Shown: in pieces, positions 3,961 through 61,945 of the stretch | Position numbering within the stretch: the first letter of the stretch is position 1 | Layout of the letters: every line of letters begins with the position of its first letter | Origin: Cornus controversa | Taxonomy: Eukaryota > Streptophyta > Magnoliopsida > Cornales > Cornaceae | NCBI GenBank assembly: GCA_026545225.1 | Contig: CM048850.1 | Coordinates: 3,782,001 to 3,846,000 of the forward strand | DNA: 64,000 nucleotides | Direction of reading: 5' to 3' | Program-made: the position numbers and the translations under genes | The notes under the pieces: model-generated | Told to the model about the DNA's origin: nothing | The model's input: the letters and a program-made list of their open reading frames with translations, nothing else | Database searches by the model: none

Positions 3961-4209
3961 TGTCATGTCCCGATTTTCGACTCCCGAAAACCAAAGGTGA
4001 ACTCGTCCACTAAACCCTAATGCACCATCTTAACCTTTAATTTATCACGGAAGCTTAATCACATTCTTGCACATGCTTATGCACAATGCATCATCAACCA
4101 ATCTCAATGGGCCCTACAACTAGTCCTACATATGTTTCCAACACTATGTGGACTACAATATTTCGCTCAATCGAAGTTCAGATTTCGCACAATCGAAGTG
4201 CAGATTTTG
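3961..4209 (-). mobile_element. Fragment of a minus-strand Tekay-like LTR end
   Basis: Read on the minus strand this fragment ends in CGGGACATGACA, the usual terminus of the Tekay-like LTRs in this window. It resembles the minus-strand LTR near 56210-56400, sharing phrases such as cggaagctta and gggccctaca. The words TTCGCTCAATCGAA and TTCGCACAATCGAA lie at 4162-4197. The remaining part of this LTR was not found. Confidence 0.6.
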
Positions 4210-4891: not shown

Positions 4892-6297
4892 TGATGTGGC
4901 TAAACTCGGATTATATTGTAAGCTTAATTTTGCCCTTTTTATCAAAATATAATTTAACCACTCGCAAGAGCACGAATCTTTGTAGATAAGGTTCTATATA
5001 GAGGGTATCGATCCCACGAGGACTAGTAACAATTGTCTTAAAGAAAGATTAATTCCACTTTAATCCTAAAAACAAGGTTTTGAATTTTTGTTTATAAAAC
5101 TATTGCATGAATGAAATGACAATAAATTTAAAGAGTAAAGGATGGGAGAGAAAACTAGGGTTGGTTTCCACCACTAGCCATTCACATGTTCATAAGTGTA
5201 GCAAGCATGGGATTCATTAATTAAATGCCTAACAATGTCATTAGGCTTGTGACCTCAATGACATATCAAAAGATCAATGTGTTTGTCCACCTATCATAAT
5301 CCATCTTCAACAAGCATAGCTCTTCAACCTAACTAACTACCTAATTACCCTACTCTCTAAGTAAACCTACATGCATCAAAGCTACCTTATCTTGGCATGG
5401 TTTATACAAACAAACACAATACATTCATTTAAACACCATTATCTAGCCATCATTTGCATTTCTTGTGGAATATGCAAATGTTGTGCATTCACATGAAGAT
5501 TATACTCTAAGACAAGAATAAAACCAAAATCATATGAATATATAGAAGAAATGTATTAGTGTACATGATCACTAGGCTAAATAATCAACATTTAATTACA
5601 AATCCCAAGTGCTACAAAGATGAACAAGTTTACATGGTTAGGGGTTGAAATCAACACCATAGTAGAAGAGTTAGTTACTCATGGTAGCCTTGCACTCTTC
5701 CATTGATGAAGAAGATGAAGCTTCTTGGTCTGGTTCAGCTTCTCCTCTTCCTCTCCCGAAAGTCTCTCCTCCTTGGATAATCTGATGTGTATTGAGAGAT
5801 ATATGAGATATGTGGCTTTTTGGTGCTTTAAGGCTCCCTTTTTCAACCTTGGGACCCACCACATATATATATATATCAATATATATATCCCTTGTATCAA
5901 GAAGGTCCCCAAGGGTCTTGTTCAAGTCAGACAATCCCCCTAAGTCGTGCAAAAAGGGAGATTTTGTTGCAAGTGGGAGAGCAGGTGAGCAAGTGGGCAA
6001 GTGGCTTCTGCAGAATCTCGATCAATCGAGATTGGATCTCGATTAATCGAGATTTCGATCAATCGAAATGAGATCTCGATTGATCGAGATCAACATCTCA
6101 ATTGATCGAGATGCCTTAGCTGCAATTTCTAACTTTTCTCTTCAGCTGCAAAAAACCTCAAACTTTGCTCCTTTCACTACAAGACCTGCAATACATTAAA
6201 AACACAAAAATACCATAAACAAATCTCGGTAAACGTAAAAATGGAACTAACATATGCAATAAAGAGGGTTCAAATGCATAGAATTGAACACTTATCA
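4892..6297 (-). mobile_element. 3' LTR of the Athila-like element
   Basis: It starts TGATAAGTG and ends CCACATCA on the minus strand, 1406 bp. It is closely similar along its length to the solo LTR at 11503-12817, except for about 105 bp present here (around 5415-5520) and absent there. A minus-strand polypurine tract precedes it directly, which fixes the orientation and marks it as the 3' LTR. The five bases at its outer edge (ATGTA, 4887-4891) cannot be matched because the other end of the element is lost. Confidence 0.85.
6014..6115. repeat. Palindromic word array, CTCGATTGATCGAG type
   Basis: Five words follow one another: ctcgatcaatcgag, ctcgattaatcgag, ttcgatcaatcgaa, ctcgattgatcgag and ctcaattgatcgag. 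Arms are complementary around a 2-4 bp centre, and outer bases change in pairs (C..G against T..A). Confidence 0.9.
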
Positions 6298-9992: not shown

Positions 9993-10345
9993 CGTGCATC
10001 TCGATTGATCGAGATGTACATCTCGATCAATTGAGAATTCGATTAATCAAAATCCTACTTCGATCAATCGAGATCCTCTTCGATCAATCGAGATCCTTCT
10101 TCAATGAATCGAGACTTTACTTCAATCAATCGAGATGTTACTTTGATCAATCGAAATTTTACTTCGATCAATCGAAATCCCATTTCGATCAATCAAAATT
10201 TTGATCGATCGATGACCTATCGAAGTGTTATCGAAGAATACTACCTCTCAGGACTTTGGACCTGGCAAATTCTCTGCAATATTTTGATCAATCGAGACCG
10301 AAATCTCGATCAATCGAAATCTCGATTGATTGAGATCTCTACTTT
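9993..10345. repeat. Large palindromic word array between pol and env-like gene
   Basis: About fifteen words of the TCGATCAATCGA type run from 9998 to 10345, most written (a/c)TTCGATCAATCGA(a/g)AT. A central interruption (about 10215-10280) carries the phrases aggactttggacct and ctgcaatatttt, also found beside the word array of a Tekay-like LTR at 56640-56670. Confidence 0.9.
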
Positions 10346-10529
10346 GATCAATCAAGATGCTCAAAAATAGTCAGCTTGAGTTTTTCTTTCATGGACTTGG
10401 ATTTTTGGGACTTAGATACTAAATTGCTTAGATACAAAACTTACCTCGAATTAAAGGGACATCATGGAAGCATGATAGCTACCATGACTACTCCACCTTA
10501 CATGTCTATGGCATGACGTTCGAATCAGC

Positions 10530-11502: not shown

Positions 11503-12817
11503 TGATGTGGCTGAACTCGAATTATATTGTAAGCTTAATTTTGCCCTTTTTATCAAAATATAATTTAACCACTCGCAAGAGCACGAATCTTTGTAGATAC
11601 GGTTCTATATAGAGGGTATCGATCTCACGAGGACTAGTCGTAATTGTCTTAAAGAAAGATTACTTCCACTTTAATCCTAAAAACAGGGTTTTGAGTTTTT
11701 GTTTATAAAACTATTGCATGAATGTAATAACAATAAAATTAAAGAGTAAAGGATGGGAGAGAGAACTAGGGTTGGTTTCCACCACTAGCCATTCACATGT
11801 TCATAAGTGTAGCAAGCATGGGATTCATAAATTAAATGCCTAACAATGTCATTAGGCTTGTGACCTCAATGACATATCAAAAGATTAATGTGTGTGCCAA
11901 CCTATCATAATTCATCTTCAACAAGCATAGCTCTTCAACCTAACTAACTACCTAATTACCCTACTCTCTAAGTGAACCTACATGCATCCAAACTACCTTA
12001 TCTTGGCATGGTTTATACAAGCAAACACCACACATTCAAATGAATATATAAAAGAAATGTATTAGTGTACATGGTCACTAGGCTAAATAATCAATATTTA
12101 ATTACAAATCCCAAGTGCTACAAAAATGAACAAGTTTACATGGCTAGGGGTTGAAACCAACACCCTAGTAGAGAAGTTAGTTGCTCATGGTTGCCTTGCA
12201 CTCTTCCATTAATGGAGAAATTAGAGCTTCAAGGTCTGGTTCAGCTCCTTCTTCTCCTCTCCCGAAAGTCTCTCTTGGTATATTCTGATGTGTATGAGAG
12301 ATATTTGAGAAAATGTGGCTTCTTTGTGCTTTATGGCTTCCTTTTCAATCTTGGGGCCCACCATATATATATATATATATCAATATATATATCCATTATA
12401 TCAAGAAGGTCCCCAAGGATCTTGTTCAAGTCAGACAATCCCCCTAAGTCGTGCAAAAAGGAGAATTTTGTTGCAAGTGGGAAAGCAGGTGAGCAAGTGG
12501 GCAAGTGGCTTCTGCAGAATCTCGATCAATCAAGATTGGATCTCGATTGATCGAGATTTCGATCAATCGAAATGAGATCTCAATCAATCGAGATCTCGAT
12601 TGATCGAGATCAACATCTCGATTGATCGAGATGCCTTGGCTACAATTTTTAACTTTTCTCTTCAGCTGCAAAAAGCTTCAAACTTTGCTCCTTTCACTAC
12701 AAGACCTGCAATACATCAAAAACATAAAAATACCATAAATATATCTCGGTAAACGTAGAAACGAAACTAATATATGTAATAAAGAGGGTTCAAATGCATA
12801 GAATTGAACACTTATCA
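11503..12817 (-). mobile_element. Solo LTR of the Athila-like family inside the copia 3' LTR
   Basis: The unit starts TGATGTGGCT, ends ACTTATCA on the plus strand (1315 bp) and is flanked by a perfect duplication ATGAG (11498-11502 and 12818-12822). The uninterrupted sequence exists in the 5' LTR at 20095-20110 with a single ATGAG, which proves the insertion. It is the same family as 4892-6297 and carries the same word array at 12515-12635. Confidence 0.95.
12515..12635. repeat. Palindromic word array in the Athila solo LTR
   Basis: Six words of the ctcgatTGatcgag / ttcgatcaatcgaa type, one more than in the sister LTR at 6014-6115, showing gain or loss of words between close copies. Confidence 0.9.
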
Positions 12818-18280: not shown

Positions 18281-20646
18281 TGATGAACCTAGAGGAAGAG
18301 GGGGTGAATAGGTTATTCAATTTTCTTCCTAATATTGCAAGTTTTACCGGCACATGCAATTACATAATTAATGGACACACAGATTTATAGAGGAAAACCC
18401 CAGTGTGGGGAAAAAACCTCTTTGAATTGAGCTCCACTATGTCTGAAAGGGTAGTACAGTAATTCTCTAATCACTCTCTCACTCACCCAACTCACAACAT
18501 AGTCACTCCAGCTCTTAACCTAGTTCATAGCCTCCCTAGGCCTGAACCACCTCACCAAATCTCACAACAGCTTTTTTGCTCTCAACCCAGCCCAAGCTTC
18601 CCAAAGCCCAAGCTATCTCTCACCAAATCTCACCACAGTCACTCACACTCCCCCAGTCCAAACTATCTCAATACTTGGACTATACATAGTGATAGTGGAG
18701 TCAGTTTGATGTGATGCGCAGCAACTTTTTAGGCTTTGATTGTAGGTCTTTAAAATTGATCTGTAAATCTTCGAGCTTTGATAGTTAGTCTTCAAGGTCC
18801 AGCTTGATAATGACACGGCCACTTGTCTTCCTAGCAGATAATGACACTTAAATTTCTTTAAAGATAGGCTTCAATAAATACACCCTTAAAGTGTGGCTGC
18901 AACAGACTTGTAGTAAACATTCTTTCAATGAATCCCATTCTCAACTTTTTGAACAACCATTCAGCTTATAATTTGCTTCTAAAAATGGTCTAAGTATTTC
19001 TTCGTCTTCGTACTTGTTCTAAAAAGAAAGGACACAAGCTGCAACTGGAGTAGATGTTAGTAGCACAAGAAATTTAGAAGATAGATAGCATAGGCACTAT
19101 TCAAATCTTGAGAACAACAATTCTAGAACAACAAATCAGCAATTCCAAATCAGCAATATGCAATTCCAAATCAGCAATATCAAATCCAAATCAGCAAAAA
19201 TCAATTCCAAATCAGCAAAATGAATTCCAAATCAATAATATAAATTCCAGCTCAGCAAACATAAATTCCAAATCAGCAAGTAGATTTTAGCAAAGTTTAT
19301 TTCAACAAATTAGAAGGTACAGCAAGTAGAATCCAGCAAATTTAACCCAACAAAACATGAATTCCAGTGAGATGTCAAATTAAGCTTCAGAGCTTTAGAT
19401 TTCCCGCAGCAAGTTAAAAATAATGGCATAGTTTCAATTTTCCAAAAATAAGAAATTTGGTCACCAAAGAGAAGATTTAACAGTATATAGTCAAGCTATA
19501 ATGAATCTCAAACACAAAATGTATTTCTGCAATATTGAAGCTCAGATACAGAATTATGATTCAGCAATATTGATTTTTGGACACCAAAAACTTTTCAACA
19601 AACAGAGCACGATCAAACAGATTTTCATCAATAAAATAAGAACAACCAGATTTTAGTGTTAAGAACATAACTTCAACAAAGGAACAACTCAAAAACGATT
19701 TTCAACAACAACAAATTTTCAATCTGACATTTAGAATTCAAAATTTTATCTCCAACAAACAACTTCAAAAAATCAAAATCAACACAAGTATCATCGATAT
19801 ATGAAATGAAAGAACAGAAGTTTGAAAAAGGATTATACCAAAATTTTTGATTCTATTCAATTGATTTAGCTGAAGATGATGAAGCCCTCAGAGTTTCGAA
19901 CTGATGAATCTGGGTTTCATGCTTCTGAATAAATGAGGCTTATATGAAATGGTCTGAAGCTGTAGATCAATAGTCACGGACGAATATGCGAAGCTCATGC
20001 ACTGTTTGAAAACTTGAAGCTGCTATTGAAGTATTGAAGATGTTGTTTGAGGTCTTGAAGCTGCTGATTGAAGTCTTGGAGCTGCTGGCAGCCATGAAAG
20101 ATGAGTAAAGGTACAGTAGAGAATAAGTGAGGATGACACTATATGCTTAAAGATCTTGACTAGTTCGGTAGTCATAGAAGCTCTCAGCCCTCTTTTCTCT
20201 CTCTTTCTATCTCTTTTTCTTTCTTTATTGCTCTGCACCTTTACCCAATGCCACTGCAAGCTCTCTCTTATTCTCTTTACCTTATACGATATATAATTAT
20301 ATATATATATATATATATATATTACTTCAATTAACCTATTATGAATACATATCTATATTAGCTGAAATCACTCACTGCCCCATTGGTGCCACATAATTTT
20401 TTATACATAAAATATCACTTTTTGAAATGATAGTAAACCTTAGTAACATTACTTTCCCAATATGCCCTTGCACCCAATTTGTCTTTCTTTGACAATTGAC
20501 GATATTGCTCCTCCAATTTGATTAGTGGGAGATACATGAAAAAATATAATAATACAAGCAAATTAAAATAAGAAATTAAATGCTCCTGGAGATCCTTTTA
20601 ATATTAAAACTTAGGCAAACATGTTCATGGGCTTCCCGAACCATCA
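18281..20646 (-). mobile_element. 5' LTR of the copia element
   Basis: 2366 bp; the minus strand starts TGATGGTTCG and ends TAGGTTCATCA just before the primer-binding site. It is the reference copy for the broken 3' LTR at 11198-13409 and is related to the solo LTR at 142-3105. It contains an aaatcagcaa word block (19105-19290) and an interrupted TA run (20288-20322). Confidence 0.9.
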
Positions 20647-32770: not shown

Positions 32771-33730
32771 GTTGATTCTTGCCTCTATCTCCTACGTATC
32801 TATTTTAGATACGTCATTAATTTTACATATGTTCTCTTAATTGTTCATATGTGGTATTTATATATATATGGGTGCTTATATATATATAAATGTGGTTATG
32901 GTATATATGTGTATATACGTAGGATGTGAGAAAATATATATATAGGTGTATATATATATATATTTGGGGTATGAAAGCATGCTAGATTGAAATGCTTGTG
33001 TACATTGTGATATATATATATATATATATGTAGGTTGAGCCCATGTGAAGCATGCTAATTAATATATGTTTAGCTATGTGTTTCGTATGCATAGGCGAAT
33101 TTTATGCATTGGTTAAATATATATGTGATTATATATTGGGTAGCAGTAGAGATGCATGCTAAATATGATTATAGCATCAAGGAGCATTTGAGAAGCATGA
33201 TTTATGCTAAGTGTTATATATGTGTGTGTAATACATGTATCGGTGATGCAATATATATATGAATATATATATGGTGATTCGAGTGCATATTAGACACTTG
33301 TGGTGAATGTATGCATTGAATGAGAGCATGACTATATTTATGCTAGTGTATATGCATATGTGATTTATATACATGAATTGACATGTACATGATTACGTGT
33401 GAGTTTATGTGAATTAAATGCATGCTATTTGTATATTAAAAATGTGTGCATTGGTGAAGCATGACTAAAATGTGCTTAAGTGAGGTTTGTGAGCATATAC
33501 GAACTGTATGCTAGGTTTTACATGTATAGGTAAATATACATGTGGCTTTGTAGAGACGAAATGCATGCTCTGTACTTTTAACTAGCTTATGCATTGTGAG
33601 GCATGAACATTGAATGCTTGATTGTTATATGTTCGAAATGCATATATGGGGTTGTTGTGAGGAAACGGGGAAATGTGGTTGAATCACCCAAAGTAGGTCA
33701 ATGCTCGGTCACGGTGTTGAAGTCGTCTCA

Positions 33731-33960
33731 TCACCTAGTAGGACCGATGTTCTCAGTGGTGTATTTTAAAAAGGTCTAATTACCTAGTAGGACCGATGTT
33801 CTCGGTGGTGTATTTTGAAAAGGTCTCATCACCTGGTAGGACCGATGTTCTCGGTGGTGCATTCTGAAACGATCTCATCACTTGGTAGGACCGATGTTCT
33901 CGGTGGTGCATTCTAAAATTATCTCATCACCTGGTAGGATCGATGTTCTCGGTGATTGAT
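33731..33960 (+). repeat. 49 bp minisatellite in LTR 31161-35214
   Basis: Five units at 49-base spacing, each with taggaccgatgttctcggtgg. The unit differs from the tatgtgatgactcggtg units at the same place in sister LTRs. Confidence 0.9.
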
Positions 33961-34810
33961 TTCGATTGGTGTGGGAAGTGTCCCAGGTTACATTGTTGGT
34001 CAAGAATCATGTTAGGCTATCGGGTGGGACCCGAGAGAGAGAGAGAGAGACAAAACTATGAGATTGCTTGCATTATCTATTGTGAAGCATTCTAAATGGT
34101 TAACGCCTTCTTATATATATATATGCGTTGCTTGTGACGAAGCATGATATATGTTGGATGTCTTTTACTTTTGAGCATGTTATATGGTTTAAATGCATCT
34201 TTAGTGCATTTGAGATTGCTAATTGTTTAGTAGGGGACGTGATGATTGATTTACATTGATTTATGTAAATATTTTGACATATATGTTCTATATACATATT
34301 GGTGCTGGATGTTTTCTACTTTCAAGCATGTTAAAAATGATTTCAAAAATCCTATGTAATTGGCTTAGATATTCATATGTGCTATATTTGCCATATGCAT
34401 TCCTGGTTCATGTATGCTAGATGGAGCATGATTTAAATATTGTGATATATTTAAATGTGTATGTTTTTGAGAATATGTAAGGATCGACCTGCTGCAGCGG
34501 TGATAGTATGGTTCTGCATACCTTGTTGGGCCTTTGAGCTCACCCCCCCTCCAGGTTTTACAAGTATTACTAGTTTTGGAGTCAGTTGGGGGATTGATAG
34601 TACCAGTTGCAGAGGTAGTGATTAGTCTCCTTAGAATCTGATTTATGTCCAGGATTTTAGATAGATGTTGTACATTTGGTTTAAATGTAGCTAGACATTG
34701 TATGTTGGGTAATTTATCCCAGTTGTACATTTCATTTGATGTATGTTTATGAGACGGACATTCAGGGACTGAGTTATTATTTCAATTGTTTAATGCATGT
34801 TGTAGGAATG

Positions 34811-34950
34811 CTGGGGGGACACGTGCCCAGAAGTGTCCATTTTGATGGTTAGATATAAATCCTGGGGGGACACGTGCCCAGAAGTGTCCATTTTGATCTT
34901 TATATGTGAATGCTAGGGGGACACGTACCCATAAGTGTCCATTTGAATTT
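34811..34950 (+). repeat. 51 bp repeat with GGACAC...GTGTCC hairpin
   Basis: Three copies at 51-base spacing. Each has arms GGACAC and GTGTCC around a 10-base loop. Two copies of the same unit occur in the sister LTR at 45280-45370. Confidence 0.85.
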
Positions 34951-35111
34951 AAAGCAGGAATGACATATCAGGACCTGATTTATTAGAATGGGTATTGAGA
35001 TTGTATGATCAGGTGATGGTTATAGCGTGAGGGTGATCTCACGGGTTCACACTCGGGATTCGGGTCGGTCCGGGGGAGTCCCGGCGGTCCGAGTTCAGGG
35101 GCGTGATAGAA

Positions 35112-35123
35112 TGGTATCAGAGC
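35112..35123 (+). other. Fossil primer-binding site inside an LTR end
   Basis: TGGTATCAGAGC follows an inner LTR terminus (GGGGCGTGATA, ending 35108), but the target duplication places the real LTR end 91 bases further on at 35214. Confidence 0.8.
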
Positions 35124-35649
35124 ATGGTACTTTATAGAGGGTAAAAAGGGTCCATTGGGACTAATGGACTGGTTAACCTCCAGTTCCCGGGAGTCGGGGG
35201 ATCGGGGCGTTACAACAATGATCCAAAAAAAATTTCAGAACTTTTTAAAAAAAGTTACTATTCACGTGGGCCAAAAATTACTTTTATTTTGAAATTGTTC
35301 TAAATGATTTCAACAATGAGGACCATGGTTAGTTATGCATATTCACTTAATTATATGCATATTGAGTTGCTTCTACAGTTAAGAGAATTGGGTTGGATGT
35401 TAGATTTTTTCAAAACGGTTGTTTTGATTATGTTTCACCGGTCACCCCCATTTCCCTCGCTCTTAACCGGGTGTCGAAAATTGGGGCGTGACAATTTCCT
35501 TCATCATTTATGCATGCCATAACTTGAATTGGATATATGCAAAGCCATTTAGAATGTTGCATGTTAAGGATGAGGGTTAAACAATGAAATTAACCATTTG
35601 GAGAATCCTACAGGATTTATGTGAAGGACCTATGATTGATCAAAAGCCA

Positions 35650-39649: not shown

Positions 39650-39895
39650 TAATCACCTTGGAGTATGTGATGACTCTGTGAAAACCTTGGAGTAATTTTA
39701 TCACCTCGGAGTAATTTTATCACCTCGGAGTTTGTGAGGACTCGGTGATAAACTATACAATCACCTTGGAGTATGTGATGACTTGGTGATAAATTATCTA
39801 ACCACCATGGAGTATGTGATGACTCAGTGATGAATTTCAAAACCAACTAATCACCTTGGAGTATGTGATGACTCGGTGGCAGTATTGGAGTTGTG
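39650..39895 (+). repeat. Minisatellite of Z1, tatgtgatgactcggtg unit
   Basis: Five to six imperfect units of 40-55 bases built on accttggagtatgtgatgac, with two shortened units near 39690-39735. Confidence 0.85.
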
Positions 39896-40794
39896 TGGGA
39901 AGCGTCTTGGTTATATGATTTGGTCAAGAATCATGTTAGGGTATTGGGTTGAGTCCGAGAGAGGGACAAGCGTATGATTAATGCTTTCATTTGAATTGTG
40001 AAGCATGTCATGTGTTTAATGCATTCCTATATATATTTATGCATTGCTTGTGAATGAACATGGTATACGTTGGATGATACATGTAATGTAGTGACATGCA
40101 TTCATGTAGGTCATGTCGAGTTGACACTTAGGTGGGTTGGGGTATCTCTACTAAGCCGCCGTGGTACTCACCCCGCTCCCCCTAACATTTTTTCAGGTTA
40201 TACGTCAAGGATGATGATAGGGACTTCATAGTTCTTATAGGCATTTTGGGAACTCAATTGGAGTATGATGATCGTTTGGATATTGTATATTTTGTGGCTA
40301 TCCGTACCGGCTTGTGGCACGTTGATTATGAATTTGTAGTCAAGGATGAATTTTTAGCATTTTTGGACTTTATGCATGAAATCCTTGTAATGACTATAAA
40401 CGTAGAATCCATATGTGTTATGGTTTATTCTTGGACCAAACTTAATTTATGGATTGTAAAGTTATGATTTTCTTCTTATGTTATAACTTTATGTATAGAC
40501 TTTTCTCAAGTGAATGAGTAGGGAATGAAGTGAATGGATATGTGGTTTGAAAAGATGGACTTTAATTGTGTTTTTGAATAATTATGCTTGAAGTATGACT
40601 TAGATGATGAGACAGTATTTGTGGATGATTATAAGATTGCATAGTTGATTTTAAATTGGATGATCTTAGTTGGGTTTTGGAGAACTTGGAATATTAGATT
40701 TGGCTTGGATTTTTGTGCCTTAAAGTTCATGTATGTTTGGATTGAGGCTTGGTGAAGTGGGATTTTAGGTTGCAAAGTTTTCACAAAAAAGTTA

Positions 40795-40900
40795 AGTACC
40801 AGGAAAGTCCCACAGTCCTACTTTTTGGGCACTGGTCCAACTTCTCTCGGTATTTTGGACCTGCAGGAAGTCCCATCGGTCCTACTTTTTGGGGACCCAT
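40795..40900 (+). repeat. Repeat pair of Z1 at the word-array position
   Basis: Two direct copies of a phrase ending cctactttttggg (around 40814-40830 and 40877-40890), with GGTCC/GGACC words between. It sits just before the conserved gggtcataacttattcg phrase, where sister LTRs carry CGAT-type words. Confidence 0.65.
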
Positions 40901-43267
40901 CCCACTTACAATAAGTTTTCCTCTTAACTTCGACGGGTCATAACTTATTCGTTTCAAATCCAAATCAAGTGATTCTTTTTTTAAAATTGAGTGTTTTTAA
41001 ACCTTCTTTCCAATGGTTGCATTTTTATATATTTATTACAAACTGACAAGGATTTATGTATTCATTTTTGTGGGATAGAACTAATTAAATGGTTGTATGG
41101 TTGAGGCCATTGAGGTTAAGTGGTGTTGACTTGTGCATAGGTAGTTACAAGTAGGTGACTAGGCTTCCGTGGTAATGAAAGGTTAAGATGGTCCATTAAG
41201 GCTTAATGGATGGGTTCACCCTTGATTTTTCGAGAGTGGGGAATCGGGACGAGACAGAATGGTATCAGAGCATGATACTTTATAGAGGGTAAAAAGGGTC
41301 CATTCGGACTAATGGATGGATTAATCTCCTATTTTTTGGGAGTCAGGGAATCGAGGTGTTACAAGACATGTGTTGTGTGGTTTGTGGTTGTGCATGGTTA
41401 CATGTGTACTTACTATTTGTTACGTTGTTACCTCATTGATGACATAAGTGTCCGACCATGCCATGTAGCGTGTAAGGACCGGAATTATTTTGACCAATTT
41501 TGGCCGATTTTGGACCGGATTAAAATTTTTTAAATTAATTAAAATTTGAAAAGGTGTGGGTATAGAAATTTTTATATAAGTGGAAGGTGTATATATATAT
41601 ATATATAGTACCTATATTTATATTTAATTATAAATATATGGTGGGCTTATATGAAATTATAAAGAAATGTGGGTGCACATGCTTGATTACAAGTATATGT
41701 GTAATGTATATACGTATAGGTGTATATGTGTTAGTGGATTCCCATGTGGTGTATTATGTATATATTATATATGTAAATATAAGACATGTGGAGGAGAATG
41801 ATTTGAAGACTTGTGGTGCACAAAAGACATGAGAAATAAAAGGGATAAAGAATCTGATCACATAGTCGGCTGGGAAAGAAAAAGAAAGAAAAGGAAAAGA
41901 AAAAAAAAGGAAGAGGGAAGAGAGAAATCGGGAAAGAGAGAGAAAGAGCCGAGATGGCTAGAGAGAGAGAGAGAATATGGAGTCGTGAGAGAGGAGGAGC
42001 TCCGGCAGTGGGCCTTCGGGTTCATGAAGGTGAGGTGGCTGGGAGTTGCTTGCGGCGGCGACGGTGGTGGAGACACGGCTGAGCCGTGTTTAGCGCAGCT
42101 AAAGGCGGTTTCTCAACTGGTGCGACAAGCGACGGTGGGGGCTCTACTGCGTATGGCAGTTCACAGGTGTTTTTGGCCTCTTGTAACGGTGCTCCGGCAG
42201 TGGCGCGTGGGTGGAGACTCGACTTTAGAAGCTAGGTTTTTATGGCACAATTTCAGCTGAGTTTGGCTTGGCTCGGCTGTGACGATTCGGTTAATGGTCC
42301 TTCACAGTTGATGGGTTGTTCTAGGTGGGTTCTATTATGGCCAGTTGGGGGTCTTTGGGTTTGAATGGGTCTTCCGTGTTGGGTGACCGGATGGTGGTTG
42401 GCTGTGGGTTCAGTCCATGTGGTTGTTGGTTCTGGCTGAGTTTCGGAATTGGGTTTTGGATTGTGGCTGGTTATGAGTTCAGTTTGGTGGCTCGGTTAGG
42501 GGCTATTTGGCTCATATTTGATCACGATTTGGTTGGGCCTCCATGGTTGTAGTTCTCGATTGGGATTCGGGGTGAGGCTCGGCTGTGCATGGTGGTTCAA
42601 CTTGGTTGTGTGGTGGCCGAAAATGGCTGGTTTGGATGGCCTCGGGTGTGGCTATGGTGGATGGGTTTCGGCCAACTTGGTTGGTGGACGTTGATGGTGG
42701 GGTCTAGCTTGTTGATGGGTGGTCTTGGCAAAGGAAATGGGTATGTTCGGCTGCTTATGGTGGTGCCGAAAGGGGCTGAAAATGGTGGCTTTGTGTTGAT
42801 GGAGTCACAGTTTGGGGTAGTTGAGATATGGTGGATAGTATGTTTGGGCCTAGACTTTTGATTTGAAAATGGGCTTGATATTTGGGCTGCAATGTTGGGT
42901 GTTACCAATTAATGGGTTTCTTGAATTGGTAGCGTGGGATGTGAAGTTCACGTGGGGTTAGTCTAATAAATGGATTGAACTAGTTGTTGGGCTTAGACCA
43001 TGGAATTGGACTGAAATATGGGTTATGGTTTGGGTTGGACCAACCATGGGAATAGAAAGAAGAAAGTGGGTGGTTTGCATGGACTTTGACACGGGACTAG
43101 ACCGGACATGGAGATGGACCGTTTTGCAAGCGCAAACTTGGCGAAAACGGGACCTAAGGCAAGTTGATTCTTGCCTCTATCTCCTACGTATATTTTACTT
43201 ACGTTGGATAATTTACATATGTTTTTAATTTGATCATATGTAGTATGTGTATATCTATATATAGGTG

Positions 43268-44045: not shown

Positions 44046-44432
44046 AATCACTTTGGAGTACGTGATGACTTGGTGATAACCCAATTAATCACCTTGGAGT
44101 ATGTGATGACTCGGTGATGATCCATTTAACCACCTCGGAGTATGTGATGACTCGGTGATGATCCATTTGATTACCTCGGAGTATGTGATGACTTGGTGAT
44201 GATCCATTTAATCACCTCGGAGTATGTGATGACTCGGTGATAAACCAATAATCGCCTTGGAGTATGTGATTTACTCGGTGAGGAAGCCATCTAACCACCT
44301 TGGAGTATGTGACTTACTCGGTGATGTATTCCTGGACTATCCAGTCGCCTTGGAGTATGTGATTTACTCGGTAAGAAAATCCCGAAGCCACCTAACCACC
44401 TCGGAGTATATGACGTACTCAGTGACGGTGTT
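44046..44432 (+). repeat. Minisatellite of Z2, nine units of about 44 bp
   Basis: Nine units contain ggagtatgtgatgactcggtg. Later units change gatgactcgg to gatttactcgg, showing spread of a variant within the array. Confidence 0.9.
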
Positions 44433-45279: not shown

Positions 45280-45370
45280 CTGGGGGGGACACGTGCCCAG
45301 AAGTGTCCATTTTTATTGTTAGATATAAATGCTGGGGGGACACGTGCCCAGAAGTGTCCATTTGAATTTA
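45280..45370 (+). repeat. Two GGACAC...GTGTCC hairpin repeats in Z2
   Basis: Two copies at about 51-base spacing, near-identical to those at 34811-34950, which supports the subfamily link. Confidence 0.85.
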
Positions 45371-46097: not shown

Positions 46098-46156
46098 TGT
46101 TCAATGCATCACAGCTTCGATGCATCTAACTCACCAGTTCGATGCATCGAAGTTAC
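46098..46156. repeat. Palindromic word array of Y, TTCGATGCATCGAA type
   Basis: Three words: gttcaatgcatcac, cttcgatgcatcta and a perfect TTCGATGCATCGAA, followed by gttactattcacagcaatc. Confidence 0.85.
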
Positions 46157-47574: not shown

Positions 47575-47840
47575 GTGGGGGCGTTTAGTGGTTGAACCAC
47601 CTGGAAGATGTGAATTATTGGTAGTGGTGGGATGACAACCACCTGGAGGATGTAAATTCTCGGTAGTGGTGGGAGAATCACCTCAGAGTAGGTAAATACT
47701 AGGTGAGAATGTAAATAGTGGGTCAAACCACCTGGAGGATGTGAATTCTCGGTAGTGGTGGGACGACAACCAAGTGGAGGAGGTAAATCCTCAGTAGTGG
47801 TGGGACAATCACCTTGGAGGATGAAAATTCTTGATGACGG
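47575..47840 (+). repeat. Minisatellite of X, cacctggaggatgtgaattc unit
   Basis: Six imperfect units alternating between cacctggaggatgtgaattctcggtagtgg and a shorter cctcagagtaggtaaatact form. Confidence 0.8.
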
Positions 47841-48614: not shown

Positions 48615-48745
48615 GCAGTTCGATGCATCGAAACACCCAGTTCGATGCATCGAAGAACCTGTAGGATTTTGAAATGTAAAACTCCCGAGAGCTGTTTTTG
48701 GTTGATACTTGTTCAATGCATCGAAGTAATGACTTCGATGGATCG
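48615..48745. repeat. Palindromic word array of X, TTCGATGCATCGAA type
   Basis: Four words, two of them perfect TTCGATGCATCGAA, the others gttcaatgcatcgaa and cttcgatggatcgaag. They are followed by the conserved caatcgggcataacttcttc phrase. Confidence 0.9.
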
Positions 48746-49008
48746 AAGTCACTTTTTATAACATGCCCCAAATTACCCCAAACTTCAATCGGGCATAACT
48801 TCTTCATTTTAATTTGGAATTAAGTGTGATTTTTTTGAATTCGAGTATTTTTAGACCCTCTTTCTTTTGGACTAAGTATCACACTCAAATTCCAAATGTA
48901 CAAAAAGTTAGGTTTCAGATGCTTAGCAATTTATGGACGTGAACAGAGCAGAACATCTACTGTTCACCCTCAATTCCCGGGAGTCGGGAATTGGGGCATG
49001 ACACATTA

Positions 49009-54893: not shown

Positions 54894-56579
54894 TGTAGAG
54901 ACCGTGACCAATTTTGGCCGATTTTGCATTTTTTGAATTACAATTGTCATAAATGCATTTGAGTGGTGATTTGCATGTTTCGAGTGTAGGGAACATGTTT
55001 GGGAAGTGTTTTAAAGGTTTTGGTAAGTTTTTGAAAGATTTAAAGAAGTTTGACTTTTTGGTCAAACTGGGGCCTGGGAAGCGACTTAAGTGGGCCCGAA
55101 AATTCAAAAAAAAATTGAAAATAATTATTTTTGGGAATGACTTAGATGAAATGTTTAGAAAGTTAAGGAAGTGATTATGAGGTCGTAGGAGTTTTCATAA
55201 TCGAAAACGAAGGTCGGGAGGGTACGTTAAGTGGCTTGAGGGCATTTTGGTCTTTTCGCAAGCCAAGATATTTTAAATATCAAGGCTGAGAGATCTCAAC
55301 CATTATACACAATTTTCTCTCTCTATATTGCTCCCACTTCTTCTCTCTTCCTTCTCTCTAGGTTTCAGAGGTCTTCGGGTGTGATTCACGTTCCAACGAA
55401 GAAGGGAGATACGTAGGGGACGGCTCGGGCTTCCCTTTGAACTGATCAAAGTTGCGGTTCAACAAGGTGGATATTGCTGGGATTTTGAGAAGTGCTTGGA
55501 AGGCCTTCATTTTCGAGGTAGGGGTTCTCCTTCTCATTTACTTATTGATTCTAGGGTTTCGGGTGAAACGGTGAGAGTTAAGGTTATGTATTGCATGATT
55601 TAGAGTGGTCGTATACATGGTATAAGGGTGAATGTGTGAGAGATTTTAACATGTGTACCCATATGCTACATTTTGTGCACATATATAAAAATGTGTTATA
55701 TTGAACATGTATGCATTATGTGTTGTTAAGTGAGTTAAATGCATGCTATCTTTATAGAGAAAATGTGTGCATTGGTGAAGCATGACTAAAATGTGCTTAG
55801 GTGAAGTTTTGTGGGCATATGCTAATTATGCTAGGGTTTGCATATATAGGAATGCATATATGTGGGTTGGTGAATATGAAATGCATGTTATGTTCCTATA
55901 TAACTAGCTTATGTATTGTGAAACATGAATCCTAAATGCTTGATATTTATATATTTGAAATGCATATATGGGTCCGTTGTGAGGAAACAGGGAAATGTAG
56001 TCGGATTGCGTAGAGTAGGTCAATACTCGGTGAGGGTGTTGGAGTGGTTAAGTCACCTTGGAGTAGGTAAATTGTCCCGCCCTGAAACCCAGACGGCCGG
56101 GACTCCCCCGGACCGACCCCGAATCCTGAGTGTGAACCCGTTCACTCAATCCCGTGAACAATCTCAATTACACTCATGCATTAGTATCAAGGTTTGATAC
56201 CATGCTATAACGCCCCGATTTCTAACTCTAGGAGAACCAGAGGTTAAACTGTCTATTTAGCCCCATATACCCTCATTACCATCATTTACTGCGGAAGCTT
56301 AACTTAATTCTTGCATATGAATGCACCCAATTCCATCTTAACCAATCCCCATGGGCCCTACATCAAACCATACACCTTAGTGGAAATTCACTTATCCACA
56401 CTTTCAAGAATCACTCACTTTCAAGCCTCAAAACTTATTATGTTTGGAATCTGAAAGTGAGACCTACACCATTGGATAAAGGATCCAAAAATACTCAAGT
56501 TCAAAAAAAACCACACTCAATTCCAATCTAGAACGAAGAAATTACGTCGAAATGAAGTTTTGAAAATTGCTGTGAATAG

Positions 56580-56770
56580 TAATTTCGATTGATCGAAAAT
56601 GGGACTTCGATTGATCGAAATTCTTGCGAAGTTTTCACCCTCTCGGGACCTCAGACCTGCAATATTTCGATTGATCGAAATGGGGGTTTCGATTGATCGA
56701 AATTCCTCCTGTCTGGACCCTAAAAATCATCATAAATCATCACCCCTTCGCACGATCGAAATGCATCTCC
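56580..56770. repeat. Palindromic word array, TTCGATTGATCGAA type
   Basis: Four perfect TTCGATTGATCGAA words, at about 56583, 56606, 56668 and 56689, and one ttcgcacgatcgaa at about 56748. The flanking text is shared with 59868-60105, where the words are different. Confidence 0.95.
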
Positions 56771-57534
56771 CGGGACTTCCAACAACCCTATACATGGTCC
56801 ACATGAAGCCCAATCAACATTCTATCATCCTAGAACCCCTCATACATGATTAATAACATAAATGAAAGGTTTTAACATCAATCTCACACTCAATATCACA
56901 TTCATAATTGAATTCATACACCAAAATGAATCATTTCTTTCACGAACACAATCCATTCATAATAGAAACATCATCAAATGAATTAAGTGCCACCATGGGC
57001 ATTACATAAATTAAACAGTTATCTTTCCACACCCAACAAGTTTAAAATCCAATACATACATCAAAAGTACATATGTCCAAAGTACAACTACAACTAAAAA
57101 GGAAGTCACATGCCACAAGCCGGCATGGATAGCCACAAAAATGCACAAATCCAAAAAATAGCAAAAGGCTACTAGAATTTCACTTAGACACTCATGTCTC
57201 ATCCGTCATCGGTGATTTATCTGTAAAATATTTAGAATAAAGGGGTGAGCACCACTGCGACTCAGTAAAGATACTCCAATCCACCTAAGTGCCAACCCGA
57301 CACGACCTACATAGATGCATGTCACAACATTTCACATATCATTCAACATACATCATGTTCACTCACAACAATGCATATATATATATAGGGATGCATTAAA
57401 CACATATCATGCTTCATAATTCAAATGAAGGCAATAATCATACACTTGTCTCTCTCTCGGACTCGACCCGACATCCCAACATGATTCTTGACCAACCATG
57501 TGACCGAGACATTTTCCCCACACAATTCTAACAC

Positions 57535-57710
57535 CGCCACCGAGTCATCACATACTCCAAGGTGGTTAAGTGATTTATCACCGAGTCCTCACATACTCCA
57601 AGGTAATTAGATAGTTTTGAAATTCATCACCGAGTCATCACATACTCCCAGGTGGTTGAATTGTTTTAAGAGTTTCACCGAGTCATCACATACTCCAAGG
57701 TGAAAATGTT
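57535..57710 (-). repeat. Minisatellite of the minus-strand LTR
   Basis: Four units of about 50 bases containing, on the plus strand, caccgagtcatcacatactc. Confidence 0.85.
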
Positions 57711-58845
57711 ACCCTTCCATACCTCCCCGTTTCCTCACAACGACCCCAATATATGCATTTCGAACATATAAACATCAAGCATATAATTTCATGCCTCACA
57801 ATGCACATGTTAATTGATAAAACACGTAGCATGCATTCCATCTCCACAACACCACACATATATTTACTTATATATGCAAAACCTAGCATAATATCCACAT
57901 ATGCTCACAAAATTTTCCTAAGCACATTTTAGTCATGCTTCACCAATGCACACATTTTCTATACAAATATAGCATGCATTTAATTCACTTACAACATATA
58001 ACGCATATATGTCCAATATAACACATTTCCACATATATGCACAAAAGCTAGCATATAAGCATACATGCTCTCATTCTCCCACATTCTCATGCATTTGTCC
58101 CTCACATCATACATACTAGGAGAAACACATCTATTGCATACAAGAGACTCAAGAGAAGAACAAAAATACCTTATCCCACCCCTCTTACCTCTCTAAAACA
58201 TGCAATACTCAACTTTAGCTCTCACCACTTCACCCAAAACCCTAGAATCGACAAGTAGATGAGAAAGAACACCCCTACCTCGAAAATGAAGGCCTTCCAA
58301 GTACTTCTCAAAATCCCAACAATGTCAACCTTACCGAACCGCAACTTTGATCGGTTCAAAGGGAAGCCCTAGCCGTTCCCTACGTATCTTCCTTCTTCGG
58401 CGGAACTTGAATCACACTCGAAGACCTCCAAAACCTAGAGAGAAGGAAGAGAGAAGAAGTGGGAGCAGTATAGAGAGAGAAGCAACCATGAGATATGAAA
58501 TATCTCTGCAGATTTGACCATTTAAGGTCCCTAGGTCACGAAAAGACCAAAACACCCCTAGTCCACTTAACGCACCTTCCCGAACTCCTTTTTCGATTCT
58601 AAAAACTCCTATGATCTTGAAATCGCTTCCTCTATTCTCTAAACATTTCATCTCAGTCATTCTCAAAAATAAATATTTTCAAAAAAATTTCTGGATTCCC
58701 GGACCCCGGTTTGACCAAAAAGTCAAACTTCTTCAAATCTCCTGAAAACTTTCCAAAACCTTAAAAACACTTCCCAAACATGTTTTTCACACTTCAAACA
58801 TGTTAAACACCATTCAAAATACATTTATGCGGTCTCTACATAAAT

Positions 58846-59140
58846 ACTCAGTGGCGATGGTCTACCTACCTTAGAGTACGTAAATACTCGGTGGGGATTC
58901 CAAAAAGATGCCCAATCACCTTAGAGTAGGTAAATACTCAGTGGGAATTCCAAAAAGATGCCCAATCACTTTGGAGTAGGTAAATATTTGGTGATTGTGG
59001 TTTACTCACCTTGGAATAGGTAAATACTCGGTGAAAATTCAGAAAAAGAAAAGGGACCAAGTCATTTTGGAGTAGATAAATACTCGGTGACGATGGTTTA
59101 CCCACCTTGGAGTAGGTAAATATTTAGTAGCAGAGTTGGA
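58846..59140 (+). repeat. Minisatellite of LTR 54894-60608
   Basis: Six units containing cttggagtaggtaaatactcgg. It continues from 56010-56072 across the nested insertion. Confidence 0.85.
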
Positions 59141-59867
59141 ATGGTGCGGGAAGTGTTAGGGTATCGGGTTGAGTCCGAGAGAGAGACAAGCGTATGATTA
59201 TTGCTTTCATTTTGAATTATGAAGTATGATATGTGTTTAATGCATCCCTATATGTATATGCATTGTTGTGAATGAACATGATGTGTGTTGAATGATATAT
59301 GTAACGTAGTGACATGCATTTATGTAGGTCGTGTAGAGTCGGCACTTAGGTGGGTTGGGGTTTCTCTACTGAGTCGCCTTGGTACTCACCCCTTTATTCT
59401 AAACTATTTTATAGATAAAGCGCCAATGACCGAGGGGACATGAGTGTCCAAGTGGAATTTTGGTAGCTTCTTGTTCTATTTTTGGACATTGTATTTTGTA
59501 GCTATCCATGCCGGCTTATGGCAAGTGACTCCTTTTTGAGTTGTGGTTATATTTTGGACAAATGTAACTTTGATGTATGTATTGGATTATAAGCTTATTG
59601 GGTATAAAAGTACAATGGATTAGTTTACGTAATGCTCGTGGTAGCATTTAATTCATATGATGATGTTTTCATTATGAATGGATTGTGGTTGTGAAAAAGA
59701 ATGATTCATTTTGATGTATGATTCAATCATGAATATGATTTTGATTATGTAATTGATGTTGGTATCTTTCATTTATATTATAGATCATGTATGAGGGGTT
59801 ATAGGATGATAGGATATGGATTGGGCTCCAAATGGACCATGTATAGGGTTGCTGAAGGTCTTATAGA

Positions 59868-60105
59868 GGGCATTTCGATTGTGTGAAATGCCTATTTCGC
59901 ACAATCGAAACCCTCATTTCAATTGTGCGAAGTGGTTGCGAATTATTAGAATTTTTAGGGTCCAAACAAGGGCAATTTTGCACAATCGAAACCCCCATTT
60001 CGATCGTGCAAAATATTGCAGGTCCTGAAAAGGTGAAATTTTTGCACAATCGAACACTTTTTTGCACAATCGAAATCCCATTTTTGCACAATTGAAGTTA
60101 CTATT
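59868..60105. repeat. Palindromic word array, TTCGATTGTGCAAA type
   Basis: About nine words alternating ttcgattgtg(c/t) and its complement gcacaatcgaa. It occupies the same LTR position as 56580-56770 with the same intervening text but a changed word. Confidence 0.9.
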
Positions 60106-60608
60106 CACAACATCTTTCCAAACTTCAATTCGACGTAATTTATTTGTTTTAGATCGGAATTAAGTGTGATTTTTTTTTTAAATCGAGTATTTTTTAATTC
60201 TCTATTCAATGGTGTAAGTCTCAGTTTCAGATTCCAAACTCATGAAGTGTTGAGCCTTGGAAGTGAGTGACTCATAAGGGTGCGGATAAATGAATCCCCA
60301 CTAAGTGATATGATTTGATGCTGGGCCATTGGGATTGAATGAGGTGGAGTTGTACACACCTACGTGCAATGATAGAGTTAAGCTTTTGTGGTACTTGAGA
60401 GTAATGAGGGTTCATTGGGTTTAATGGACCGATTAACCTCCTATCTTCCAGGAGTCAGGAAATCAGGGCGTTATAGCATGGTATCAGAACTTGATACTAT
60501 CGCATGAGTGTGGTTAAGGTCGTTCACGGGGTTGACTGAACGGGTTCACACTCGGAATTCGGGGTCGGTTCTGGGGAGTCTCGACGATCTGAATTTTGGG
60601 GCGTGACA

Positions 60609-60769: not shown

Positions 60770-61945
60770 TCAATCTCCCAAAATCAACACAAAACTTTCA
60801 ATGATCAATCCCTTCCACTAATTCGACTTAAAAACAATCATAAATATCAATCACAATAATGTAATATATCAAGTACAAAGTGTAGCGATGGTTGAGGCAA
60901 AGTTGAGGGAAAAATGAAGAGAAAAACACTCAAGAAGAAAGCTAGCACATAGTGAAACAAAATGGAAAACATGCACCGTTTAACCTATTGGCCAAGCCTA
61001 GATGGACCGATCCAGCCTTCACCTTGGACCGGTCCAACTGGCTTGCTTGTCCAGTTGACCAATTTGGCCAAAAATGCACTTTTTTTGGGAAAAATGCTTA
61101 AAAGTACCTAAAAAATTCACAAAAATATTCTAAAATTTTAGGAAAATAGGAAAATATTTTTAGAATTGTATTTATATTGAAATAAAAAAATATAACAATC
61201 ACATAATCATTACAACTAATTTTTCACATAAAATAACAATGAGTTCTAAAATTTTCATAAAATTTCAAGCAAATTCATGAATGCACAATTTTAAAACACA
61301 TAAATTTACCAATAAAATTCATCATTAAATTCATGATCATGGAGCAATTTTCAATATACAAATATTTATAAAAATTTATAAATTCATCTAATAAATTCAT
61401 GTGTGTGTGTAATCTAACTTCATAAAAAATTAATCAAATTCATTTGATGCATCTTCTAAAACACATTGGATGTTAAGCAAATCAAACCACATATGATCAA
61501 CTTATTTTTCATTATTTATTTATTTATTTCTAAGATGGTAGATTTCACACTTACGGACAGTCAACTATTTTCTCAAAACAACTTCTTTAAAAGATATCTC
61601 ATTGGAGATTTATGTCGTTGTGGTAGCTTCAAACACATCTCGAATGTAGCCTTTTTCCTTTTGTCTTAAATTTTTAGTAATTTACTTTTTTTCTTTTCTT
61701 TTCATGTTGAATTAAAAATATAATCTTTTCTTTTTTAATTTTTTTCATTGATCATTTAAGCCTTCAATGCTACTCATACAATATACCCTAGTCAACTTCA
61801 CATTAGTTTTCAATCAAATCTCTAAGAGTTGGACTAGTGTACAAATTGTATGGACTCAAAATATTTACCTCTAAAAAGAAATAAATACAACACATTAGTC
61901 ATCAATGTTTAAATCATAAACTCAAGTACTTCATTCATTTATAAA
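60770..61945. other. AT-rich stretch without a recognised gene
   Basis: It contains the perfect palindrome TTGGACCGGTCCAA at 61024-61037 with ggaccgatcc at 61004-61013, but no domain-bearing frame. 61081-61945 is very AT-rich and I see nothing in it. It may be the 5' side of the second SIRE-like element. Confidence 0.4.

Follow-up and report, generated by a model that had tools for sequence, protein, structure and literature searches.

How do short palindromic words that recur within one long terminal repeat (LTR) come to differ, several at a time, between copies of the same family? The question is raised by a stretch of 64,000 nucleotides from Cornus controversa (contig CM048850.1, positions 3,782,001 to 3,846,000; the window), which, judged by its repeats, is a nest of plant-type retrotransposons in a genome of 771.7 Mb and 61 contigs. 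Within it a solo LTR, here termed C, lies inside another solo LTR of the same family, D (Table 1). An earlier note, made from the letters alone, reported that four words had been swapped together between these two copies. We find this observation to be partly confirmed and its interpretation partly supported: the words are altered where they stand, one site and one half at a time and in a common direction, and not visibly by the copying of whole words.

The nesting is borne out by the coordinates and by the target-site duplications (TSDs), which read TAAAT/TAAAT around C and CTTCC/CTTCT around D (4/5 match) and identify both as solo LTRs; the words and the spacers common to C and D lie where they had first been placed. 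With the sense strand of the family taken from a related full element around locus L099 (from its LTR end, primer site and 3′ LTR start), the word arrays sit ∼2.2–2.4 kb into a 2.94-kb LTR. No RNA family reached its gathering score in the window.

Each word is a palindrome of 14 bp, composed of two inverted 6-bp half-sites and a 2-bp centre, one half being constant (TTCGAT) and the other variable (TTCGCA or TTCGAT). D has eight such words, numbered s1 to s8 in sense order. Once CpG transitions are undone, 7/8 are TTCGCACAATCGAA in either orientation (TTCGCACAATCGAA/TTCGATTGTGCGAA), and of the nine departures from that form among the eight words, eight are CpG transitions. Four words of C read exactly TTCGATTGATCGAA, at homologous sites, though C has five words, the one at 56747 having been missed. 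The contrast that had been drawn between the half-words ATCGAA and TGCAAA is real, except that TGCAAA is TGCGAA after CpG decay. The statement that neighbouring bases had barely changed fails between C and D, which are identical at 61/79 positions in words, 89/118 in nearby spacers and 1952/2473 elsewhere. It is nearer the truth for C against its closer relatives L036 and L038, where 92/99 spacer positions agree in each comparison and words agree at 75/92 and 76/92, and less so against the mosaic copy L031 (83/97 and 69/79). Thus the unusual feature of the C/D pair is that four words of C changed alike, and not that words changed more than their neighbours. Simulating independent point mutation, 0/4000 runs in each of six settings reached the observed within-minus-between word similarity, using only the four C/D sites that differ and omitting the unchanged fifth; that such mutation is insufficient is therefore upheld.

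To place C and D among their relatives, we took about 40 best copies each from 3,547 (D search) and 3,984 (C search) candidates, the C set being sampled through 30 loci; L029 was omitted from the D set (no array at the anchor), ten more loci were fetched by place, and L053 was added. Seventy loci were entered, two of which (L011 and L084) failed the anchors, leaving 68 coded; dropping near or true duplicates (L026, L028, L048 and L097) left 64 copies with 486 words, D (L009) and C (L069) included. One locus, L034, had appeared to be a D copy with GATYAATC words throughout; this was rejected, as another array at the locus is coded outer-type and the locus seems to hold two arrays.

Among the 486 words, variation in the variable half is concentrated in one dinucleotide, which reads CA in 335, AT in 120, TA in 17, AA in 5 and any other pair in at most 3. 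Its mirror in the constant half reads AT in 477/486 and TG in 1/486. Other word positions vary too, mainly the CpGs, the centre and the two ends. Copies differ in how many sites carry the replacement. All eight sites scored are outer-type in 25/68 coded copies; s5 alone is changed in L071 and L080, s5 and s8 in L031, and exactly s4, s5, s7 and s8 in eight copies, with further ones having unscored cells. The same four sites are changed, with the s6 unit lost, in L075, L087 and C, while every scored site is changed in L053, L076, L079 and L096 and nearly every one in L078, L082 and L094. A replacement order of s5, s8, s4, s7, s1, s2, s3 has 0 violations in 490 scored ordered pairs from 27 changed copies; this order was read off the same data, with s6 and unscored cells omitted, and so describes a nested pattern and is no test of it. 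Site s6 is outer-type in 16/17 scored among these changed copies.

In 29 complete copies, word orientation is nearly invariant at each site (29/29 at six sites, 26/26 at s7 and 28/29 at s5, the sole exception being the changed s5 word of L031), and the centre is mostly CG at s1 and s5 and TG/CA at the others. Fixed orientations and site-specific centres indicate that the sites have their own identities. The changed s3 word illustrates this: it is TTCGATTGATCGAA in all six copies that have it (L053, L076, L078, L079, L094 and L096), keeping its orientation and its centre TG, while its neighbours read TTCGATCAATCGAA or near it. Since its own centre and orientation are kept, s3 was not overwritten by a neighbouring word; the six cases perhaps share one event by descent. 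Comparing five of the eight four-site copies with four unchanged copies (20 pairs, not independent of one another), half-site positions differ at 8–9/16 and array spacers at 8–18/117–120 (Fisher p 2.5e-6 to 5.3e-4). The start-to-start pitch of paired words is 22 bp in 147/156 usable pairs, from 175 measured of up to 256, after 19 were dropped as string-matching artefacts.

These data do not agree with a swap of all words as one set, given that copies exist with 0, 1, 2, 4 or more changed sites and that orientations and the s3 centre are kept. Something does appear to act on the words as a class, as distinct from a unit. The earlier note had held that sites evolving independently would tell against it; in the alignment the sites are separate in timing and shared in direction.

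The same vocabulary is present in families whose pieces in the window, termed X and Y, resemble C and D only in the arrays and a short anchor. Words of family X (15 matches, 11 distinct segments) are CTCG..CGAG in most copies, and mostly TTCG..CGAA in the clade L003/L050/L067 (0.025-substitution branch, 99/96). Between this clade and the CTCG copies L057 and L054 (six pairs), word ends differ at 7–8/12 positions, the core at 1–4/72 and sequence outside at 26–59/408–425; one X site is TTCG..CGAA in 11/11 segments. For family Y there were 28 candidates, including X copies and offset repeats, and nine segments passed the anchors. Word ends are C/G in 36–50% of cases in L002 (16/32), the window copy (13/28), L062 (10/28), L060 (10/22) and L065 (13/34), then in 5, 2, 1 and 1 of 28 along (L064,(L066,(L007,L068))). 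One of the searches took loci containing an exact TTCGATTGATCGAA, a choice that favours T-ended words. An apparently opposite change, TTCG to CTCG, is seen in the D-family copies L032, L039, L044 and L046, which have CTCG/CGAG ends; therefore a single mutation bias does not cover all of these changes. Beside a word, the C/D LTRs and the otherwise unlike Y share an anchor like GGACCTGCAATAT (56654–56665 and 60013–60024, with a longer form at 10250–10282).

Across the genome, the inner word TTCGATTGATCGAA occurs at 15,538 places (7717+7821 on the two strands; reversed control 2+1), and the mixed word TTCGATNNTGCGAA at 4,071 (2080+1991; control 16+8). The word in which both sides carry the variable half, TTCGCANNTGCGAA, is its own reverse complement and occurs at 90 places (control 4), where random pairing of halves would give ∼229; that estimate is arithmetic on counts, with the TTCGATNNATCGAA word class entered as a lower bound.

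Our reading of these patterns, which we hold with confidence evenly balanced against doubt, is that the words may be bound by a dimeric factor, probably encoded by the host, whose preference for one half-site or another shifts. This reading is suggested by the two-half grammar, the pitch, the fixed orientation, the sharing between unlike families and the one-way replacement of one half. Each word, as an inverted pair of half-sites, would be bound by a dimer, and a pitch of 22 bp is about two turns of DNA. A host origin seems probable because the vocabulary is common to otherwise dissimilar families and no spare gene turned up in the single full element examined. Binding would help the element, by activation or by escape from silencing. 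When the preferred half-site shifted (TTCGCA to TTCGAT here; CTCG to TTCG, or the reverse, in other families), point mutations towards the new half would be retained in the active lineage at one site after another, such that dead copies would record the ladder, and unit gain and loss together with recombination between copies would spread the result. On unrooted trees, the direction TTCGCA to TTCGAT is favoured: a TTCGCA stump remains in six copies that have lost the s6 unit (L069, L075, L076, L079, L082 and L087), and where s1 and s5 are changed their CG centre has become CA, which is the usual direction of decay.

A broader proposal, which we offer tentatively and would sooner doubt than accept, is a shared palindromic address code, in which a host or element factor would read two-half 14-bp words at 22-bp pitch and unlike LTR families would each, independently, alter one half-site after another in their words to follow it or to dodge it. 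LTR retrotransposons fill many plant genomes. Were the address code real, the arrays of this genome would hold a fossil record of a shift in protein–DNA recognition. Provided that the words are binding sites, the way in which an interface was rewritten (which half, which letters, which site first) would be logged in thousands of dead copies, and the co-evolution of motif and reader known from VANDAL DNA transposons would extend to LTR retrotransposons. LTR arrays that look like noise can, at any rate, follow a strict grammar.

Several observations weigh against a shifting binding preference. On the flank tree the changed copies are scattered, and the unchanged label needs five changes; the common changed state may come from descent or recombination. 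Single-step intermediates are scarce (AA in 5/486 words), and the candidate TTCGAA intermediates in L073 and L074 were rejected as probable decay after insertion. Words with the variable half on both sides are scarce but not forbidden. Furthermore, words were located with at most 4 mismatches to known forms, so that a very different word at a site would be missed.

The rival that survives best, though we think it unlikely, is word-to-word copying without function, in which the array of each lineage is homogenised by transfer among near-identical words, through slippage, short tracts of gene conversion or template switching in reverse transcription. Gains and losses of units of about 22 bp are evident: C is without 44 bp of D, and L018 and L031 have extra units. 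Derived changes common to sites within a copy exceed a shuffled expectation, both away from CpG (25 vs 12.4, reached in 1/2000 shuffles) and at CpG (95 vs 79.3, 55/2000), in a shuffle that ignores that old copies carry more changes; the four changed words of C are, moreover, identical. Copying does not, however, account for a changed s3 that keeps its own orientation and centre, for orientations that differ between sites and stay fixed, for changes at distant sites with unlike spacers, or for s6 remaining outer-type in 11 copies in which s5 and s7 are changed. Whole-word gene conversion as the main process was rejected on the fixed orientation and the kept s3 centre. Concerted evolution through slippage or unequal exchange is familiar in tandem repeats, and as there, units here are gained and lost and are alike within a copy; unlike such repeats, these words are separated by unlike spacers of ∼5–45 bp and keep a site-specific orientation.

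Somewhat less probable still is segment exchange alone, whereby recombination moved ready-made arrays between LTR lineages and no word changed in place. That array segments seem to move between lineages follows from conflicts between the flanks: on the 3′ flank C clusters with L031, L035, L036 and L038 (99/95), on the 5′ flank with L053 (100/99), and combined flanks leave it without a resolved place. L031 is a mosaic that has s5, s8 and ∼110 bp downstream in common with C, and L077, L089 and L092 share an array spacer yet fall among unchanged copies on the flank tree. One change may, as a consequence, show at several places in a tree. Other families also already hold the same words. We consider it very likely that segment exchange and unit gain and loss happen, but they do not explain word differences between nearly unchanged spacers: the spacers amid changed words mostly match their counterparts in unchanged relatives (92/99), single-site states exist in L071 and L080, and the origin of the donor arrays would still have to be explained.

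Escape from host small RNAs is improbable. On this explanation the words would be targets of RNA-directed DNA methylation (RdDM) or of small interfering RNAs, and rewritten lineages would temporarily evade silencing. According to excerpts of one report, RdDM targets VANDAL non-coding regions and has been put forward as a driver of motif change (PMC10398659); each word here has two CpGs, and D-family changes are mostly at CpG. Such escape predicts changes anywhere in the target, whereas one half and one replacement dominate and both palindrome and pitch are kept. Least probable is quasi-palindrome correction, in which one hairpin arm templates the other (TTCGAT-NN-TGCGAA to TTCGAT-NN-ATCGAA): it would, arguing from the sequences, give the exact two-base change in one event with centre and orientation kept, but was rejected on the scarcity of its reciprocal product (TTCGCA-NN-TGCGAA in 0/359 undecayed words in the loci examined, overlapping loci being counted repeatedly; 90 places against 4,071 mixed words genome-wide; TG in the constant half in the single word given above), and it leaves the outer-letter changes unexplained. 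Copying, segment exchange, small-RNA escape and hairpin correction each explain part of the data.

Tandem enhancer boxes are known in the U3 region of Tnt1 and other plant LTR retrotransposons. They are, like the present words, short and partly palindromic LTR repeats that differ between subfamilies; there whole U3 blocks differ, while here spacers largely stay and letters within words change. A closer precedent is the VANDAL/VANC system of Arabidopsis. According to excerpts of two papers, VANDAL motifs vary among related elements and "evolve synchronously" through tandem repeats, and VANC6 motifs are at least 2 bases from those of VANC21 and also present in the unrelated transposon AT9TSD1 (Hosaka 2017, Sasaki 2023; PMC5735166, PMC10398659). 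The earlier view that no mechanism had been described was thus too strong, at least as regards synchronous motif sets. The likeness, as far as those excerpts go, lies in short repeated motifs in non-coding parts of transposons, differing between relatives and also occurring in unlike elements; family-specific motifs that change together and recur in unlike elements are likewise found here. VANDALs are, by the same excerpts, DNA transposons that encode their reader, unlike these LTR retrotransposons with palindromic two-half words, which change half-site by half-site in place and not mainly through tandem-repeat formation. We would call VANDAL/VANC the nearest precedent and do not call the C/D family a member, because the single element searched yielded no gene for the defining reader protein and the likeness is at the level of sequence. 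The 14-base inner word TTCGATTGATCGAA was not found in the published text searched; four 12-base word cores appear there in three papers, on other subjects; titles and abstract openings gave no report of such word behaviour in LTRs; and the exact paired words had 0 matches in IMG/VR scans.

The element around L099 places the family. Its LTR pieces, L043 and L048, are 98.4% alike over 1236 bp, with an LTR end GGGGCGTGACA, a primer site TGGTATCAGAGC and a 3′ LTR start TGTAGAGACC, and in its 4.85-kb interior pieces of gag, protease, RNase H and integrase follow one another in that order, with chromo-like pieces as well. Retrotrans_gag, RVP_2, RT_RNaseH and SH3_Tf2-1 score above their cut-offs and rve below it (E 4.8e-6). 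On this gene order the family is Ty3/gypsy, and it is probably a chromovirus, with a sub-threshold Chromo match whose 20.5 bits fall short of the cut-off, 25.1 (E 0.00047). In this one broken element no reader-protein gene was found among the five sense open reading frames (ORFs) of at least 100 aa, which match gag-pol pieces; there are also antisense ORFs of 112 and 104 aa. The name Tekay-like, given in the earlier note, would put the family in the same chromodomain Ty3/gypsy lineage as sunflower Tekay elements, for which excerpts of a published account describe a 5′ additional ORF suggested to modulate RNA silencing (PMC11728184); unlike those, L099 has ∼300 bp between primer site and gag, with no room for an additional ORF. 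These LTRs also hold a primer-site-like TGGTATCAGAGC stretch ∼100–130 bp before the 3′ end, and the two end modules around TGGTATCAGAGC occur in opposite order between copies, which looks like a rebuilding of LTR ends through strand transfer across the primer site.

Table 1. Positions in the window of the nested LTRs, their words and other features that bear on them.
Feature	Position	Strand	Description
Outer solo LTR D	54894..60608	+	ends TGTAGAGACC...GGGGCGTGACA; C inserted within
Inner solo LTR C	56073..58840	-	TSD TAAAT
Inner word s8	56584..56597	-	TTCGATTGATCGAA on + strand
Inner word s7	56606..56619	-	TTCGATTGATCGAA on + strand
Inner word s5	56666..56679	-	TTCGATTGATCGAA on + strand
Inner word s4	56688..56701	-	TTCGATTGATCGAA on + strand
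Fifth inner word	56747..56760	-	outer type still (TTCGCACGATCGAA); s1 and s3 fused through the 44-bp difference
Outer word s1	59874..59887	+	TTCGATTGTGTGAA
Outer word s2	59896..59909	+	TTCGCACAATCGAA
Outer word s3	59918..59931	+	TTCAATTGTGCGAA
Outer word s4	59977..59990	+	TTTGCACAATCGAA
Outer word s5	59999..60012	+	TTCGATCGTGCAAA
Outer word s6	60041..60054	+	TTTGCACAATCGAA
Outer word s7	60061..60074	+	TTTGCACAATCGAA
Outer word s8	60083..60096	+	TTTGCACAATTGAA
Family X word array	6017..6110	-	CTCG..CGAG words, one TTCG..CGAA; LTR-like by eye
Second X copy	12521..12630	-	same sites plus one word unit
Family Y word array	10000..10357	unassigned	mostly YTCGATCAATCGAR words
Related LTR copy A	46116..46151	+	GATGCATC words
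Related LTR copy B	48619..48747	+	GATGCATC-type words, matching sites
Distant relative H	4162..4197	-	two outer-like words, 22-bp pitch
Second hairpin-like array in the same LTRs	33725-33954, 39684-39878, 44046-44420, 47595-47831, 57538-57702, 58868-59122
LTRs with internal TGGTATCAGAGC-like stretch	60466-60608; 35099-35215; 41246-41364; L099 reverse strand 163, 296

The window and its relatives hold further arrays. The second array of the same LTRs consists of hairpin-like units of 41–50 bp, CACCTTGGAGTA...ACTCGGTG, whose inner letters vary between copies and largely agree within them. LTR copies F and G (34807–34944 and 45285–45365) have tandem GGACACGTGCCCAGAAGTGTCC units, an inverted repeat containing a CACGTG box. 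Copy E (40790–40920) has quite different words, of GTCCCATCGGTCC type, beside a GGACCTGCAG string, and another element with TTGGACCGGTCCAA lies at 61010–61070. AT-rich arrays of TGCTGAATT-like or CAATTCCAAATCAGC-like units are present in other elements (1726–2277 and 19132–19279). Elsewhere (G000:C4), the two LTRs are separated by 7,661 bp in both of the pairs L070/L073 and L072/L074, as though a single element had been duplicated as part of a segment; between L070 and L073 the difference is ∼5%, such that word decay after insertion can be observed.

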